Shown here: one piece after another, positions 23,755 to 29,995 of the stretch
How the letters are laid out: every line of letters begins with the position of its first letter
Numbering within the stretch: position 1 is the first letter of the stretch
Assembly (NCBI GenBank): GCA_947449135.1
Contig: CANFQO010000021.1
Span: 1 to 42,796, forward strand
DNA from: Planctomycetaceae bacterium
GTDB lineage: Bacteria > Planctomycetota > Planctomycetia > Pirellulales > UBA1268
DNA length: 42,796 bases
Direction of reading: 5' to 3'
Position numbers and translations under genes: made by a program
Notes under the pieces: model-generated
What the model saw: only the letters and a program-made list of their open reading frames with translations
Database searches by the model: none
What the model was told of the DNA's origin: nothing

Positions 23755-25995
23755 CTAGCGGCCAAGCCGCCAGATGGTCATCTCCGCGATCGAATGCTGA
23801 TGCTTTCGTGCCGTCTCGCGGATCACGAATGGAACATCCTCCCGATCCACGAGGGAAAACCGGGGCTCGAGGAGTCGGGTGAGCCCCGCCAGCGTGGAGA
23901 GCGGTTCGCCATGCTCGCGCCGGCCGCCGATCCACTTGTCCTTCGGCGTGTAGTCCTCGAGCCAGGTGTAGGGGGACGTGATCACAAGCAGTCCGCCGGC
24001 CAGGATTCGCGAAGCGATGCCGTCGAGAAACAGGGCCGGATCGTAGAGCCGGTCGATGAGGTTGCCGGCGAAGACGAGATCGTAGCCCGTGTACACCGCC
24101 TTGAGGTTGCAGGCATCGCCCTGCATGAAGAGAACGCGTGAGCCGGCATCCTCCAGCCCCAGCCGGCCGAGGGAAATGGTCCGCGAGAGCGTGAGCTCCC
24201 CTTCGGTCGGAATCTCGTAGATCAGGTCGCTCCCCTGCTGCAGCCGCACACCCGACTGGATGAACCGGGCCGAAAAGTCGACGGCGTCGACATGCCCGAA
24301 GAAGCGGGCGAATTCAAACGCCGATCGCCCCACGGAGCAGCCGATGTCGAGGCACTTCTGGCGGCGATCCTGCGGCACATGCCGGATGGCTGTCTCGACA
24401 CAGGCCCGCGGAAAGTTGGAGATTCCCAACGCCTCCGGGCCGAAGTGAAATTCCAGATACTGGGTCACAAGCTGGTCGGTTTCATACAACCGCGAGCCTT
24501 CGGTGACCGCCTCGTTCCCCGGCTCCTCGATGATCGGGCGAAAGCCTGCATGCTGGAAGAAGTGACGGCGAAAGGCATAGCGGGCACTGGCGAGGGCCTC
24601 GTTGCCCGTGGCGATCCAGGAGCCACCCTTGATCAGGTTGTGGCGGCCGTCGAAGGTCGGCGCCGAGAAATCGTCGTAGAGCGGATGCACCTCGAAGCCC
24701 TTGAAGGGCATGATCGGTGTCCGTGTCCACTGCCAGACATTGCCGATCACATCGCAGAAATCGCCCTGCGGAAACGCATCGACAGGCATACTCGAGGCAC
24801 CGTGCTCCAGATTGATGTTACCGGGGGCCCGGGTCCAGTCGGGCTGATCGGCGGCAAACGCCGGCGGCAACGTCTGCCGAAGGGCGTACCAGTGCGGCTC
24901 GGTCGGCAGCTGGACGTTCTCCCCTGTTCGCGCGGCGAGCCAGGCGCAGTAGGCCTGAGCCTCCAGGCAGTTGACCTCGACCGGCCAGTTGAGCGGCAGC
25001 GGCATTTCATTGAGCAGGTTCCGTTGCCAATACGCAGCGGCTGCCCCCGTCCCCCGCCGCAGCCAGAACTTAGGGTGCGCGGCCCGCGTGTAGTGCAGCC
25101 AGCCGCGGCCCTCCTCCGTCCACCACTCCTCGCGGGCATAGCCGCCGTCCTCGACAAAGGCGAGAAACTCGCCGTTCGAGACAAGTTGGCGGGCGGCCCG
25201 GAATTCGGGCACTGCGACCTCTTCAACGCCGTATTCATTATCCCAGCCGAAGGTCTGGTCGTCGGCCGGTTTCCCCAGCCGAACCGTCTGCGTGGCGACC
25301 GGCAGCCAGTCGTTGGCCGGCACCGGGCCGGATCGCTTGCAGATCGCCCAGAGCTGCTGTTCATCGGCCGCGAGTTCGCCTCCCTGACGCAGATCGTCGA
25401 GCGGCATCAGCCGCATGATCACACTGGATGTTTCCAGGTGAATCCGCTCATGCTCGATGCCCATCAGAATGATCCAGGCCGGCGAATCCTGCCCGATCGG
25501 CAGTTCGAGAGGCATCGACTCGATGAACGCGTCGACCTGTTCCCGTACGCCGGCGCGGTAGTTGCGCACGGCCGCGACACTCGGCCAGTCGTAGTGGGCC
25601 GTGTTGAGGTCGTCCCACGACATCTCGTCCACGCCGACAGCCATCATCGCCTCGATCCGCGGATCGACTCGGCTGGTGATATAACGGCCGGCGATCAGCT
25701 TGTTGATGTAAAACACCGCCGGGTGGGCGAAGTAGAAGATCAGCGGGTGGCGGAGCGGCTCGTGCCGTTCGTAATACGAGGCGTCGTCGCGGATCAGCGC
25801 GAAGAGCCGCTCGTAGAGCTCACAGGTCTGGTGGTAATACCGGCGGAGTTCCGCCCGTTTGGCGGCCACCGGGTCGGCAGCGGTCGGATCGGCGGTCAGC
25901 AGCACCGTCTTCGTGGGTACAAGCCCAGCGGAAAGAGAGGCGAAGCGGGCACGGACGGCATCGGGCGAGGTGGCAGCAGACGCGGTCGGATTCAT
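23755..25995 (-). CDS. ovoA: 5-histidylcysteine sulfoxide synthase / 4-mercaptohistidine N-methyltransferase
   Basis: Makes the thiol-histidine ovothiol: joins cysteine to histidine C5 with oxygen at a non-heme iron, then methylates the ring. The product is 746 residues with the full three-part layout. A DinB-like N-terminal domain supplies the iron ligands His91 (FYFAHPAVFYINK) and the HxxxH pair His182/His186 (MGIEHERIHLETSS). A formylglycine-enzyme-like domain follows (IGNVWQWTRTPIMPF, LIKGGSWIATGNE, YAFRRHFFQHAGFRP). The C-terminal methyltransferase has CLDIGCSVGRSAFEFAR and the OvoA-typical DYTPKDKWIGG. It is the last gene of a minus-strand run with an amino-acid transporter. OvoB is not in the window. 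Confidence 0.92.
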   Translation of the reverse strand: MNPTASAATSPDAVRARFASLSAGLVPTKTVLLTADPTAADPVAAKRAELRRYYHQTCELYERLFALIRDDASYYERHEPLRHPLIFYFAHPAVFYINKLIAGRYITSRVDPRIEAMMAVGVDEMSWDDLNTAHYDWPSVAAVRNYRAGVREQVDAFIESMPLELPIGQDSPAWIILMGIEHERIHLETSSVIMRLMPLDDLRQGGELAADEQQLWAICKRSGPVPANDWLPVATQTVRLGKPADDQTFGWDNEYGVEEVAVPEFRAARQLVSNGEFLAFVEDGGYAREEWWTEEGRGWLHYTRAAHPKFWLRRGTGAAAAYWQRNLLNEMPLPLNWPVEVNCLEAQAYCAWLAARTGENVQLPTEPHWYALRQTLPPAFAADQPDWTRAPGNINLEHGASSMPVDAFPQGDFCDVIGNVWQWTRTPIMPFKGFEVHPLYDDFSAPTFDGRHNLIKGGSWIATGNEALASARYAFRRHFFQHAGFRPIIEEPGNEAVTEGSRLYETDQLVTQYLEFHFGPEALGISNFPRACVETAIRHVPQDRRQKCLDIGCSVGRSAFEFARFFGHVDAVDFSARFIQSGVRLQQGSDLIYEIPTEGELTLSRTISLGRLGLEDAGSRVLFMQGDACNLKAVYTGYDLVFAGNLIDRLYDPALFLDGIASRILAGGLLVITSPYTWLEDYTPKDKWIGGRREHGEPLSTLAGLTRLLEPRFSLVDREDVPFVIRETARKHQHSIAEMTIWRLGR

Positions 25996-26022
25996 ACTGG
26001 CAGTGGTTCCGGGTCGAGAAAA

Positions 26023-27048
26023 CTACCCCGACACTCTAGCACCCATCCGCAACCCTTCCAGAAACCGTCCGGGAATCGGTCCGCCGGCACCGAGCAGCGC
26101 CCCAACGACCGTTCCCCGGTGGCAATTGTCGCCCCCTACCTGGGCATTGGCGCAGACACCTGCGGCAAAATCGCCGGCATGCCGCCAGGCCAGAAACAGC
26201 GCGGCAGGAAAGGCATCGGGGATGTAGCAGGCGGGGCTCAAGTGCCGCCCCACCACGACGTCGTCGGGGTGGCGATCCCAGTCACGGATCTTGGCCGCGG
26301 AGATCCAGCCATTGGACTGCTCCAGAATGGCCGTGCGGAGATCCTCCCCCTGGCAGACATGGATCAGCATCCTGGTGAGCACGTCGGCGGCGTCGAGCAC
26401 CTCGTCGTCCTTGTGCGTGAGTCCAACATGGAGCCGGACGATCCGCCGCAGTTCGGGATGCTTGGGGCCAAGCGCCGCCACGAGGGCAGGCACGGCCACG
26501 AGCCCGCCGATGTGCACGTCGCGCACGCCACAATTGATCGGCTTGCGGCCGGCGGCAAGGTTGGTGAAGAAGTCGCGGTGGTATTCCTCGACGTAGGTGT
26601 CGCGGTGTCGTCCGGGCGCGAGCATGAAGGCGACGTAGCGGTCGAGCCAGCGTTCGGGATCGTAGTCCCGGTCGCGCCGGACCATCTCGTAGAGTTCCAC
26701 GGCCAACTGTTGATTGAGCGTGTTCTCGCCTGCGTCGAGAAACTGGTGATAGTGGATGCCTCGCTTGCCCCAGTATTCCGCCTGCTCGCGCAAAATGTCG
26801 GTCTTCGGGCTGGCGGCGGTGTAGCTCGACCGCCAAAGAATGCTGTCGGGATGGGGATTCTTCGGCTTGAGAAAGTCGGTGATCAGCCCGTAGTCACGGG
26901 CCAGTGCCTGCCGGTCGTAATACCAATGCACGGGCATCGCGACGGCATCGGCGATGAGCGAGCCGAGAAAGGCCTGCCGCGACGTATCGATGCGGTCGGG
27001 AATGTCGGCGTTGGGGTTTGTGTCGTTCCTGTCGCTGCCAGCCGTCAT
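26023..27048 (-). CDS. ADP-ribosylglycohydrolase-like protein with degenerate metal motifs
   Basis: A 341-residue helical protein that resembles the DraG/ADPRH family at both ends (FLGSLIADAVAMPVHWYYD and VGGDNCHRGTVVGALLGA). The canonical magnesium motifs are altered: GD-ALG reads ADAVAM, the TDDT motif is replaced by the region GENTLNQQLA, and GGDTDT reads GGDNCH. Normal ADP-ribose hydrolysis is therefore doubtful. Its ATG overlaps the transporter ATPase stop by four bases, and ovoA starts 27 bases after its end, so it belongs to the ovothiol operon. A role in that pathway is inference. Confidence 0.7.
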   Translation of the reverse strand: MTAGSDRNDTNPNADIPDRIDTSRQAFLGSLIADAVAMPVHWYYDRQALARDYGLITDFLKPKNPHPDSILWRSSYTAASPKTDILREQAEYWGKRGIHYHQFLDAGENTLNQQLAVELYEMVRRDRDYDPERWLDRYVAFMLAPGRHRDTYVEEYHRDFFTNLAAGRKPINCGVRDVHIGGLVAVPALVAALGPKHPELRRIVRLHVGLTHKDDEVLDAADVLTRMLIHVCQGEDLRTAILEQSNGWISAAKIRDWDRHPDDVVVGRHLSPACYIPDAFPAALFLAWRHAGDFAAGVCANAQVGGDNCHRGTVVGALLGAGGPIPGRFLEGLRMGARVSG

Positions 27049-27773
27049 GAAAGTATCCTCGCAAAGAAACTTCGTACCCGTGGAACGTCACTGCCGTCGA
27101 TGACCTCACCCGGCGAACCGTTGGCCAGCACCCGGCCGTCGCCGACAAACGCCACCTCGTCGGCGACGCGGCGGGCGAACCCCATTTCGTGGGTGACCAG
27201 CACGAACTGCGTGCCGAGATCCTTCAGTTCGCCGATCATCTCCAGCACCTCAGCCGTCATCTCTGGATCGAGCGCGGAGGTAGGCTCGTCGAGAAACAAT
27301 CGCTTCGGCTGCACGACGAGCGCCCTCAGGATGGCAATCCGCTGCTTCTGGCCGCCTGAGAGTTCGGCCGGACGCTTGTGGGCGTGATCGGCCAGGGAAA
27401 AACGCTCCAGCGGCTCACGGACGCGGGCCCGTGCGTCGCGGTCGGTCAGGCCGTGCACATGCATTAGTGGCAGCAGCAGGTTTTCCATGGCGGTCAGGTG
27501 GGGAAACAGATTGTAGGCCTGGAAGACCGTGCCGACAGTGCGACGGTATTCCCGGAGAGCCGGTTCGTCCCGTGGCAGCGGCTCGCCGTCGAACGCCACG
27601 CTGCCGGCGACCGGCACGTCGAGCCCGGCGAGAATCCGCAACAGCGTCGACTTGCCACCGCCCGACGGCCCCACCAGCACGAGCGCCCGCACATCACCTG
27701 TCTGGAGCGCGAGGCCGTCGAGCACGGTGGTCGTGCCGAAGCGTTGCACAAGGTTGCGGACGTCGAGCAGCAT
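27045..27773 (-). CDS. Amino-acid ABC transporter ATP-binding protein
   Basis: A 242-residue ATPase of the polar-amino-acid uptake family (GlnQ/HisP). Walker A is LVGPSGGGKSTLLRIL, the Q-loop VFQAYNLFPHLTAMEN is typical of this family, the signature is LSGGQKQRIAILRAL, Walker B is KRLFLDEPTSALDPE, and the switch is LVTHEMGFARRVAD. It lies 69 bases after the permease and overlaps the ADP-ribosylglycohydrolase-like gene. It powers import by the neighbouring permease and binding protein. Confidence 0.93.
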   Translation of the reverse strand: MLLDVRNLVQRFGTTTVLDGLALQTGDVRALVLVGPSGGGKSTLLRILAGLDVPVAGSVAFDGEPLPRDEPALREYRRTVGTVFQAYNLFPHLTAMENLLLPLMHVHGLTDRDARARVREPLERFSLADHAHKRPAELSGGQKQRIAILRALVVQPKRLFLDEPTSALDPEMTAEVLEMIGELKDLGTQFVLVTHEMGFARRVADEVAFVGDGRVLANGSPGEVIDGSDVPRVRSFFARILS

Positions 27774-27842: not shown

Positions 27843-28607
27843 TCATGCCTCATAGCGGTAGCGACGTTCGAGCACCCGAGACAGTGCCGACAGGGGCAGC
27901 GTGAGCAGCAGATAGCCGGCGGCCAGCGGCAGGTAGCTTTCGAGGGTCGAGTAGGTGAACGAATTCACCTCCTGTGCAGCGAGCGTGAACTCGGAGACCG
28001 CGATCACCGAAAGCAGCGACGAATCCTTGATCAGCGACACAAACTGCCCCGCCACGGCGGGCAGTACGAGGCGGACCGCCTGTGGCAGGATGACAAGCCT
28101 CAGCGACTGCCACGGCGTGAGACCGATGGCCCGGGCGGAATCTCGCTGCGTCTGCGGGATGGCGGCGAGTCCGCCACGGAAGATCTCGGCCATATAGGCG
28201 CCACTGAAAAGCGCGAGCACGAGCACGCCCACGACGTAGCGATTCTCAAGGCCAACGGCACTGGCCACCACATAGAATCCCAGCAAGAGCTGGACGAGCA
28301 GCGGCGTGCCCCGGATCAGTTCGACATAGACGCGGCCCACGGCCTCCAGCATCACGTTCTTCGATCCCAGCAGCACCGCCGCCACGATACCGATCAGGGT
28401 GCTGGCGACGAGCGAGGCCAGGCTGAGGGCGACCGTGACGCCAAACCCCTGCAGAAACTTCTGGCGGTATTCCCAGACGCCGGCCCAGTTCCAGACGTAG
28501 TCCACGCGAGAGAACGCCAGCGCAATCAGCGACGCGAACACGGCGACGACGATAATGTGGGCGAGCCAGCGGGGCATGACAAAAAGTCGAACGGCCCAAG
28601 CCGTCAC
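27843..28607 (-). CDS. Amino-acid ABC transporter permease
   Basis: A 254-residue HisM/GlnP-type permease. Several membrane spans are visible (LAHIIVVAVFASLIALAF; YVVGVLVLALFSGAYMAEIF), with the family EAA-like loop in GLTPWQSLRLVILPQAVR and an RGTPLLVQL segment. The GTG start at 28607 overlaps the hicB stop (GTGA); an ATG at 28577 (MPRWLAH) is an alternative that leaves the overlap. The start is therefore uncertain by ten codons. Confidence 0.9.
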   Translation of the reverse strand: MTAWAVRLFVMPRWLAHIIVVAVFASLIALAFSRVDYVWNWAGVWEYRQKFLQGFGVTVALSLASLVASTLIGIVAAVLLGSKNVMLEAVGRVYVELIRGTPLLVQLLLGFYVVASAVGLENRYVVGVLVLALFSGAYMAEIFRGGLAAIPQTQRDSARAIGLTPWQSLRLVILPQAVRLVLPAVAGQFVSLIKDSSLLSVIAVSEFTLAAQEVNSFTYSTLESYLPLAAGYLLLTLPLSALSRVLERRYRYEA

Positions 28608-28843
28608 GCGCTCCGCTGCATCAGGTTCACGAACTCTCGGCCGGAGAGGGGCTGCGGCAAGGGCTTGCCGTCCCGCTCAAGCGTTTCAATTGTCTCTTCC
28701 ACCAGTTCGCAGAGTTCGGCGAATACGTGCTTGGCATCGTCGCCATGGCAGCCGCCGTAGAACAATTCCGGACAACTGCCGATGAAGCAACTGTCTTCAT
28801 CCGACCACTCGACGATTTTTACGTATCGGTCGCCCTTCGCCAT
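28604..28843 (-). CDS. hicB: HicB-family antitoxin
   Basis: A 79-residue HicB-like protein: VKIVEWSDEDSCFIGSCPEL forms the partial RNase-H-like fold, followed by CHGDDAKHVFAELCELVEETIE and a short tail. In this family the antitoxin neutralises HicA and represses the operon by binding an upstream palindrome. Its start lies inside the end of hicA (overlap 28819-28843), and its stop overlaps the start of the transporter permease. The antitoxin thus links the toxin to the downstream transport genes. Confidence 0.85.
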   Translation of the reverse strand: MAKGDRYVKIVEWSDEDSCFIGSCPELFYGGCHGDDAKHVFAELCELVEETIETLERDGKPLPQPLSGREFVNLMQRSA

Positions 28844-29037
28844 TGGTTCACCTCATTGATCGCCAACCGAACCGCTTGCTCGAGATACCGCTTCGCATCC
28901 TCGCCGTCTCTACCCGCTATCGTAACCACCTTGGCAAGAAGCGGGTGCCTGAAGTTTCGGTGGCTCCCCTTTCCGCGCCGTTCCTTGAATCCGGCATCTT
29001 CGAGGTCACGGACAAGATCACGAATCTTGCGAGGCAT
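28819..29037 (-). CDS. hicA: HicA-family mRNA interferase toxin
   Basis: A 72-residue HicA/YcfA-like toxin of the double-stranded-RNA-binding fold, expected to cleave mRNA. The catalytic His26 lies in GKGSHRNFRHP, preceded by the usual RDLVRDLEDAGFKERR. The C-terminus is slightly longer than in minimal HicA proteins. AAGGAA sits about eight bases upstream of the ATG. A perfect inverted repeat begins 26 bases upstream and is probably the HicB operator. All key residues are present, so it looks intact. Confidence 0.85.
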   Translation of the reverse strand: MPRKIRDLVRDLEDAGFKERRGKGSHRNFRHPLLAKVVTIAGRDGEDAKRYLEQAVRLAINEVNQWRRATDT

Positions 29038-29062
29038 GGGGCCGTTCCTTGGGCGAATGCGC

Positions 29063-29088
29063 GATTAGTGTACGTGAGTACACTAATC
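29063..29088 (-). promoter_or_regulatory. Probable HicB operator upstream of hicA
   Basis: Perfect 11-bp inverted repeat: GATTAGTGTAC (29063-29073) and GTACACTAATC (29078-29088), separated by GTGA. It lies 26 bases upstream of the hicA ATG and stands out as AT-rich in a GC-rich region. HicAB operons are usually self-repressed through such palindromes, so this is the expected operator. It would overlap the promoter, but no -10 or -35 box is clear. Confidence 0.65.
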
Positions 29089-29215
29089 TAACAGGCCCTG
29101 CGAAGCTGTTCCCGCCCGCAGGAACCAAGCCTCGCCCTCGGCACGTTGAAAACCTGCCGCCATAAGGAAAGTCTCATTCCGCGACGAACAGGACTGCTGC
29201 GCCCGCTTTTTCTTC

Positions 29216-29995
29216 TCAGAAGTAAAACGGGATGTCCTGAGCCTTGAAGGCGGCCTTCTCCTCGGGCAGGAACTCGTCGCCGAGTTTTTCGAAGCCGCCT
29301 TCGGCCCGAAATTGCTTGAGAAACTCGTTGACCTGGTCCCGCAGCTGCGTGTCACCGGGACGTAGGCCGACGGCCCAGGTCTCCTCGCGAAATGGACGGA
29401 GCAGGGCCCGCGTCGTGTCGGAATGCCGCTTCTGGTTCTGATAGACCGACAGCGAGTCGTAGATGAAGGCATCGGCCTTCCCCTGTGCCACCTCCATCAC
29501 CGCCGCCGATTCCTTGTCGAGCACGAGCAGCCGGGCCCTCTTGAGCGAGGTCGAGGCGTATTGATGGCCCGTCGTCCCCTTCTTGACGGCAATCGTGCGG
29601 CCTGACGCGTCGAGATCGGCCGATGACTGCACGGGAGAGCCCTTCCCGACGAGCAGCGCCAGTCCGGTCTTGAGGTAGGGCTCCGAAAAAGCGATCGACC
29701 GGCTCCGTTCGGGCGTGGCGGTCATCGAGGAAATGATGCAATCGATCTTGCCGGTCTTGAGGGCGGGGATCAGGCCGTCGAAGGCGATGTTTTCGATCAC
29801 CAGTTCGCGGCCGAGGTGATGTCCGAGTGCCTCGGCGAGTTTCACGCTCACGCCGGTCGGCCGCCCCTGCGGATCGGTCATCTCGAAGGGCGGGTAGGAG
29901 AGTTCCATGCCGACGCGGAGAGGCGGTGCGGCGGATGCCGCCATGGCCGTCGTGATCAGCAGGCACACCAGCAGGGTCAAAGCAGAGGCTCTCAT
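29216..29995 (-). CDS. Amino-acid ABC transporter substrate-binding protein
   Basis: A 259-residue family-3 binding protein with a signal peptide (hydrophobic run up to AMAASAAPP, cleavage near residue 22). Family stretches are LRVGMELSYPPFEMTD, GKIDCIISSMTATPERSRSI (Arg for the substrate carboxylate) and ADAFIYDSLSV (Asp for the amino group). It is the first transport gene of the run, but 178 bases and hicAB separate it from the permease. The ligand could be histidine, cystine or another polar amino acid; the downstream ovoA makes the first two attractive. Confidence 0.9.
   Translation of the reverse strand: MRASALTLLVCLLITTAMAASAAPPLRVGMELSYPPFEMTDPQGRPTGVSVKLAEALGHHLGRELVIENIAFDGLIPALKTGKIDCIISSMTATPERSRSIAFSEPYLKTGLALLVGKGSPVQSSADLDASGRTIAVKKGTTGHQYASTSLKRARLLVLDKESAAVMEVAQGKADAFIYDSLSVYQNQKRHSDTTRALLRPFREETWAVGLRPGDTQLRDQVNEFLKQFRAEGGFEKLGDEFLPEEKAAFKAQDIPFYF

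Follow-up and report, generated by a model that had tools for sequence, protein, structure and literature searches.

Classical HicB antitoxins contact their operator with an HTH or RHH domain at the C terminus (PMC10865869, PMC11594946). Class 1 of the Gerdes classification is a very common kind of hicAB module in which hicA precedes hicB, the two genes overlap, HicA has 60–85 aa and HicB 60–90 aa, and HicB lacks a DNA-binding domain (PMC10865869). According to this 2024 survey, the regulation of Class 1 hicAB is unexplained and the class has so far had no experimental analysis; the survey presents as an open question how these modules are controlled if their antitoxin is not a DNA-binding one. 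Here we describe a hicAB pair that landed just 5' of the permease gene of a transporter in a single freshwater planctomycete. The locus provides a defined, conserved candidate operator together with a minimal protein pair for the question of how a HicB without a DNA-binding domain is regulated.

A compact hicAB pair among transporter genes

Throughout, the window is the whole 42,796-nt stretch of DNA that was analysed. Its genes of interest all lie on the minus strand in the order SBP (substrate-binding protein), hicA, hicB, permease, ATPase, DraG-like and ovoA (Table 1). An earlier sequence-only reading had placed a hicAB pair between the binding-protein gene and the permease, and this placement was borne out by the PF07927 match of HicA and by the homologues and fold of HicB.

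Table 1. Genes and candidate regulatory elements, in window coordinates.
Feature	Position	Strand	Evidence or remark
Substrate-binding protein gene, polar amino-acid type ABC transporter (SBP_bac_3)	29216..29995	-	PF00497, 122.9 bits
Weak hicA promoter -35 position, CTGTTA	29089..29094	-	Comparison with relatives' hicA promoters
Candidate operator, perfect 11-bp inverted repeat, loop 4 nt	29063..29088		Right arm covers the -10
hicA promoter -10, TACACT	29067..29072	-	Related hicAB promoters have this hexamer at the corresponding position; one has TGCACT
hicA toxin gene	28819..29037	-	72 aa; PF07927, 42.7 bits against a cut-off of 27
hicB antitoxin gene	28604..28843	-	79 aa, N-terminal-domain-only type; 39-row alignment, AlphaFold model, PDB fold matches
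Terminator-like hairpin after hicB	28590..28605	-	No stronger than shuffled sequence
TCGACT in place of relatives' permease -10 TANNNT	28585..28590	-	7 nt before ATG; TAGACT in same-genus G002 and G003
Permease gene from conserved ATG	27843..28577	-	PF00528; relatives' alignments start at codon 10–11
ABC transporter ATPase gene	27045..27773	-	PF00005
DraG-like ADP-ribosylglycohydrolase gene	26023..27048	-	PF03747, 141.5 bits; below the DraG equivalog cut-off
Extended -10 TGCTAGAGT, candidate own ovoA promoter	26033..26041	-	Inside the DraG 3' end
ovoA, 5-histidylcysteine sulfoxide synthase and methyltransferase domain	23755..25995	-	TIGR04344, TIGR04345

HicA belongs to the same fold family as the toxins of the classical hicAB systems of E. 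coli, Y. pestis (HicAB3) and B. pseudomallei, and shares their catalytic histidine. Its active-site residue H26, along with H31, G22, G24 and D47, is present and invariant in a column-conservation analysis of 72 HicA homologues. HicA is a predicted RNase toxin that HicB would neutralise. It is the only HicA detected in the genome, and PADLOC reported just a weak HicA-like match. hicA lies upstream of hicB, and the two genes overlap by 25 nt.

HicB gave no match in Pfam, even at E<=10, and none in NCBIfam, and its identity rests on homologues and fold. All through the 39-row alignment, homologues have a length of about 79 aa. The AlphaFold model with a mean pLDDT of 86.5 (five models differed, with means of 58–87) shows a beta-beta-beta-alpha arrangement followed by one short C-terminal helix of 11 residues. 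In the PDB, it is most similar to B. pseudomallei HicB, in a structure of the N-terminal domain alone (TM 0.61). Each of the top nine Foldseek matches is a HicB or HicAB structure or TTHA0281, a HicB-like protein of T. thermophilus; the E-values are not significant for a protein so small. A PDB sequence search returned just spurious Kunitz-type and similar matches, which were discarded.

No C-terminal HTH or RHH was found in HicB by Pfam, in the AlphaFold model or among the PDB matches, which cover HicB N-terminal domains. Unlike a classical antitoxin, this HicB consists of the N-terminal domain alone, and the C-terminal HTH or RHH that defines Classes 3 and 4 is absent. The pair at 28604-29037 fits a compact Class 1 module without a DNA-binding domain, in gene order, gene overlap and the sizes of both proteins.

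The pair is an inserted cassette

We collected the permease neighbourhood from about 29 genomes of the family. The SBP, permease, ATPase and DraG genes, and OvoA where the contig reaches it, are conserved around the junction in the relatives, and hicAB occurs at the SBP–permease junction in this genome only; it is absent from every relative with a readable junction. HicB relatives that are 82–90% identical, with a constant overlap of hicA and hicB, lie at unrelated sites in congeneric genomes (G002, G003) and elsewhere in the family, and homologues are spread over many phyla. Since these homologues occupy unrelated places, mostly with the hicA start 194 nt upstream of that of hicB as it is here, the pair appears to move as a unit and is probably mobile. 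Judged from these junctions, hicAB is a cassette that this lineage acquired by insertion, with the SBP gene on one side and the permease unit on the other.

A vehicle for the cassette did not emerge clearly from searches of plasmids (no HicB match), phages (one match of 44%, in Akkermansia phage Chantilly) and viral contigs (three HicB relatives). A search of the planctomycete's own genome for more copies of the cassette or its junctions gave short, chance-level matches only.

Comparison with relatives lacking hicAB had been proposed as a way to see whether the operon is otherwise continuous. The transporter genes are indeed conserved without hicAB, but the binding-protein gene is not joined to them in a single fixed operon. 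The permease–ATPase–DraG–OvoA arrangement is stable across the family, whereas the SBP gene lies 13–31 nt from the permease in G004, G005, G015 and G032, farther off in others, and was not found upstream of the permease in G009, G028, G031 and G011 (about 9 kb or more searched upstream in each). With spacing so variable and SBP missing upstream in four relatives, the link between SBP and permease is loose. The two genes are now 639 nt apart in this genome. The 41 nt that follow the SBP stop resemble the long SBP–permease intergenic region of G003, so the ancestor probably had a long intergenic form. In G003 (L035) this gap is flanked by inverted repeats, AAAAAGGGGACGCAGC ... GCTGCGTCCCCTTTT, and G001 and G002 have repeated units (see also L034 and L036); the intergenic region resembles a small repeat element.

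A dyad on the hicA promoter is conserved in the family

The hicA promoter appears to be of the sigma70 type and to be the cassette's own. Family hicA promoters have TTGAC[GA] or TTGATG at -35 in many cases, a spacing of 16–17 nt, TACACT at -10 and then AAGGA before the ATG; here, a ribosome-binding-site-like AAGGA stands 8 nt 5' of hicA. The 11-bp perfect inverted repeat that the sequence-only reading had noticed 5' of hicA was found at 29063-29088 with its 4-nt loop, and it is above what shuffles of that upstream region give.

To score the dyad in relatives, the -10 half was taken as an anchor and the 9 nt across a 4-nt spacer were compared with its reverse complement. All 12 family hicA promoters, which are related by descent, carry a dyad around the -10 half with this fixed spacer, and 4–9 of 9 positions match. 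The mean is 5.7 of 9, against 2.4 with shuffled left halves, and none of 5000 shuffles scored as high; spacings other than 4 nt gave a lower average. Several relatives have a degenerate left half (4–5 of 9). Because the 12 promoters share the spacer-4 dyad, the palindrome represents a family-wide dyad that is perfect in this genome. Outside the planctomycete's family, a general search of 72 hicA genes did not find a common dyad upstream of hicA. One relative (L203; G009:C120:20500-22600) carries two tandem hicAB copies, the second with a near-perfect dyad, AAAGTGTAC-AAAT-ATACACTTT.

Within the 3.69-Mb genome, a second copy of the 18-nt repeat core was not found at up to 3 mismatches, and a further search with the operator core gave one copy with a single mismatch, on C134, at about the level of the backwards control.

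We regard 29063-29088 as a plausible promoter switch and a candidate operator. Its overlap with the -10 is a likeness to classical hicAB systems (PMC11594946); in contrast to Class 1 modules generally, this one has an operator-like dyad on the hicA -10 that is conserved in the planctomycete's family, and it is inserted directly 5' of a transporter unit that is without its usual promoter. The repeat had been proposed as the target of HicB self-repression. An operator-like dyad on the -10 of 12 promoters favours part of that proposal, but HicB has neither an HTH nor an RHH, and repression by HicB through the classical route is therefore unsupported.

The permease -10 is lost and the ovoA -10 is kept

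The hicB stop had been read as overlapping the permease start as GTGA. These letters are present and the open frame does extend to GTG 28607, but this is merely the first start codon of the frame, and homology with the relatives begins, in most of them, at the conserved ATG (28577-28575), 27 nt past the hicB stop, where most relatives also have an ATG.

Of 26 relatives, 22 have a TANNNT hexamer 6–10 nt before the permease ATG, where shuffles expect 2.6 and none of 2000 reached 22. A box so close to the ATG suggests a leaderless transcript; a search of the literature on leaderless transcription in planctomycetes gave nothing useful. Family permease genes (27843-28577, L034-L061) have the conserved TANNNT mostly 6–7 nt before the ATG, often as TGGTANNCT, and the SBP gene may carry a similar box, GGTATGAAC, before its own ATG. 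In this genome, a search within 60 nt of the permease ATG at 28577 found no TANNNT, and between the SBP stop and that ATG the hexamer occurs only at the hicA promoter and once inside hicA. With the leaderless-type promoter no longer recognisable, the simplest reading is that permease, ATPase and DraG are transcribed from farther upstream, most likely through hicAB, with the hicA promoter, the SBP promoter or both as the source. The hairpin after hicB was rejected as a terminator between hicB and the permease since it is no better than shuffles; a T5 follows it, with the T run 4 nt off the stem.

Insertion of the cassette need not have caused the loss of the permease -10. The sister genome G004 (support 0.999) has neither hicAB nor the permease -10, and its SBP gene lies 29 nt from the permease; the loss may thus be older or independent.

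For ovoA, an extended -10, TGNTANNNT, precedes the start by about 26–65 nt in 14 of 17 sequences (shuffled mean 0.7); these 14 include this genome and represent several genera. It occurs in differing draG reading frames and at differing distances from the draG stop, and it often holds the sole AGA codon for arginine in draG, a codon that makes up 24 of 606 Arg codons. These variations in frame and distance, together with the rare codon, indicate that the element is conserved as DNA and not as protein. On this pattern, a separate promoter for ovoA is very likely, and it is intact in this genome. Readthrough from hicAB had been proposed to place the permease, ATPase, DraG-like and ovoA genes alike under HicB control. 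For the transporter genes, dependence on hicAB transcription is plausible given the missing permease -10, but ovoA keeps its extended -10, which argues against HicB control of this gene and leaves the suggested tie between a toxin–antitoxin switch and a redox thiol weak.

Transcription of the transporter unit

The explanation we favour, and consider probable overall, is that a Class 1 hicAB cassette with its own promoter and operator-like palindrome inserted between the SBP gene and the permease unit. HicA would act as an RNase toxin neutralised by HicB, and the palindrome would most likely serve hicAB autorepression, with either the HicAB complex or some other factor as the repressor. Transcription of permease, ATPase and DraG would most likely run across hicAB and start at the hicA promoter, the SBP promoter or both, and ovoA would be driven chiefly by a conserved promoter of its own. 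The toxin–antitoxin cassette here occupies the place of the relatives' host promoter, which illustrates how such modules could become wired to their neighbours. A stronger version, in which a HicB lacking a DNA-binding domain uses a palindromic operator and the toxin–antitoxin promoter replaced the lost leaderless-type one, bringing permease, ATPase and DraG-like hydrolase under toxin–antitoxin feedback, seems unlikely to us; operator binding is proposed there to be by the HicAB complex, by HicA or by the conserved C-terminal helix.

The other explanations differ in which promoter serves the permease. A tentative possibility is that its genes are transcribed from the SBP promoter, with hicAB merely read through and the operator of little importance for them. 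The sister genome G004 speaks for this, since SBP-promoter transcription is likely there across its short gap without hicAB or a permease -10, but the probable long-form ancestor and the present distance between SBP and permease count against it. It is doubtful that the hairpin at 28605-28590 ends hicAB transcripts, leaving the permease on an unrecognised promoter and hicAB as a passenger without effect on the transporter: a terminator-like stem with T5 does stand shortly after hicB, and a promoter-like box of its own precedes the permease unit in most relatives, but the hairpin does not exceed shuffled strength, its T run is displaced from the stem, and the box is absent near the permease ATG here. 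The original proposal, that HicB alone represses the hicA operator and that its release in stress jointly increases expression of permease, ATPase, DraG and ovoA, we judge very unlikely. In its favour are the palindrome overlapping the -10, an arrangement also described for HicB3 of Y. pestis and HicB of B. pseudomallei (PMC11594946), and the lack of a recognisable promoter between hicB and the permease; against it stand a HicB without HTH or RHH, the conserved promoter-like element of ovoA, and an SBP promoter that could read through as well.

OvoA and its gene neighbourhood

OvoA resembles described ovothiol biosynthesis enzymes in that both of its domains exceed the curated cut-offs (TIGR04344, 623.1 bits against 400; TIGR04345, 299.6 against 170). 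Its gene adjoins a DraG-like gene and an ABC transporter in an arrangement that is family-wide, and the relatives show no link of this arrangement to hicAB. The pairing of a DraG-like enzyme with ovothiol synthesis (23755-27773) is kept across the family. In G006, G030, G033, G019 and G013, the OvoA match beside draG starts only near residue 490, in the methyltransferase part. A 1031-aa open frame on the plus strand (24292-27387) runs antisense to ovoA, draG and the ATPase gene and is most likely a by-product of high-G+C codon usage.
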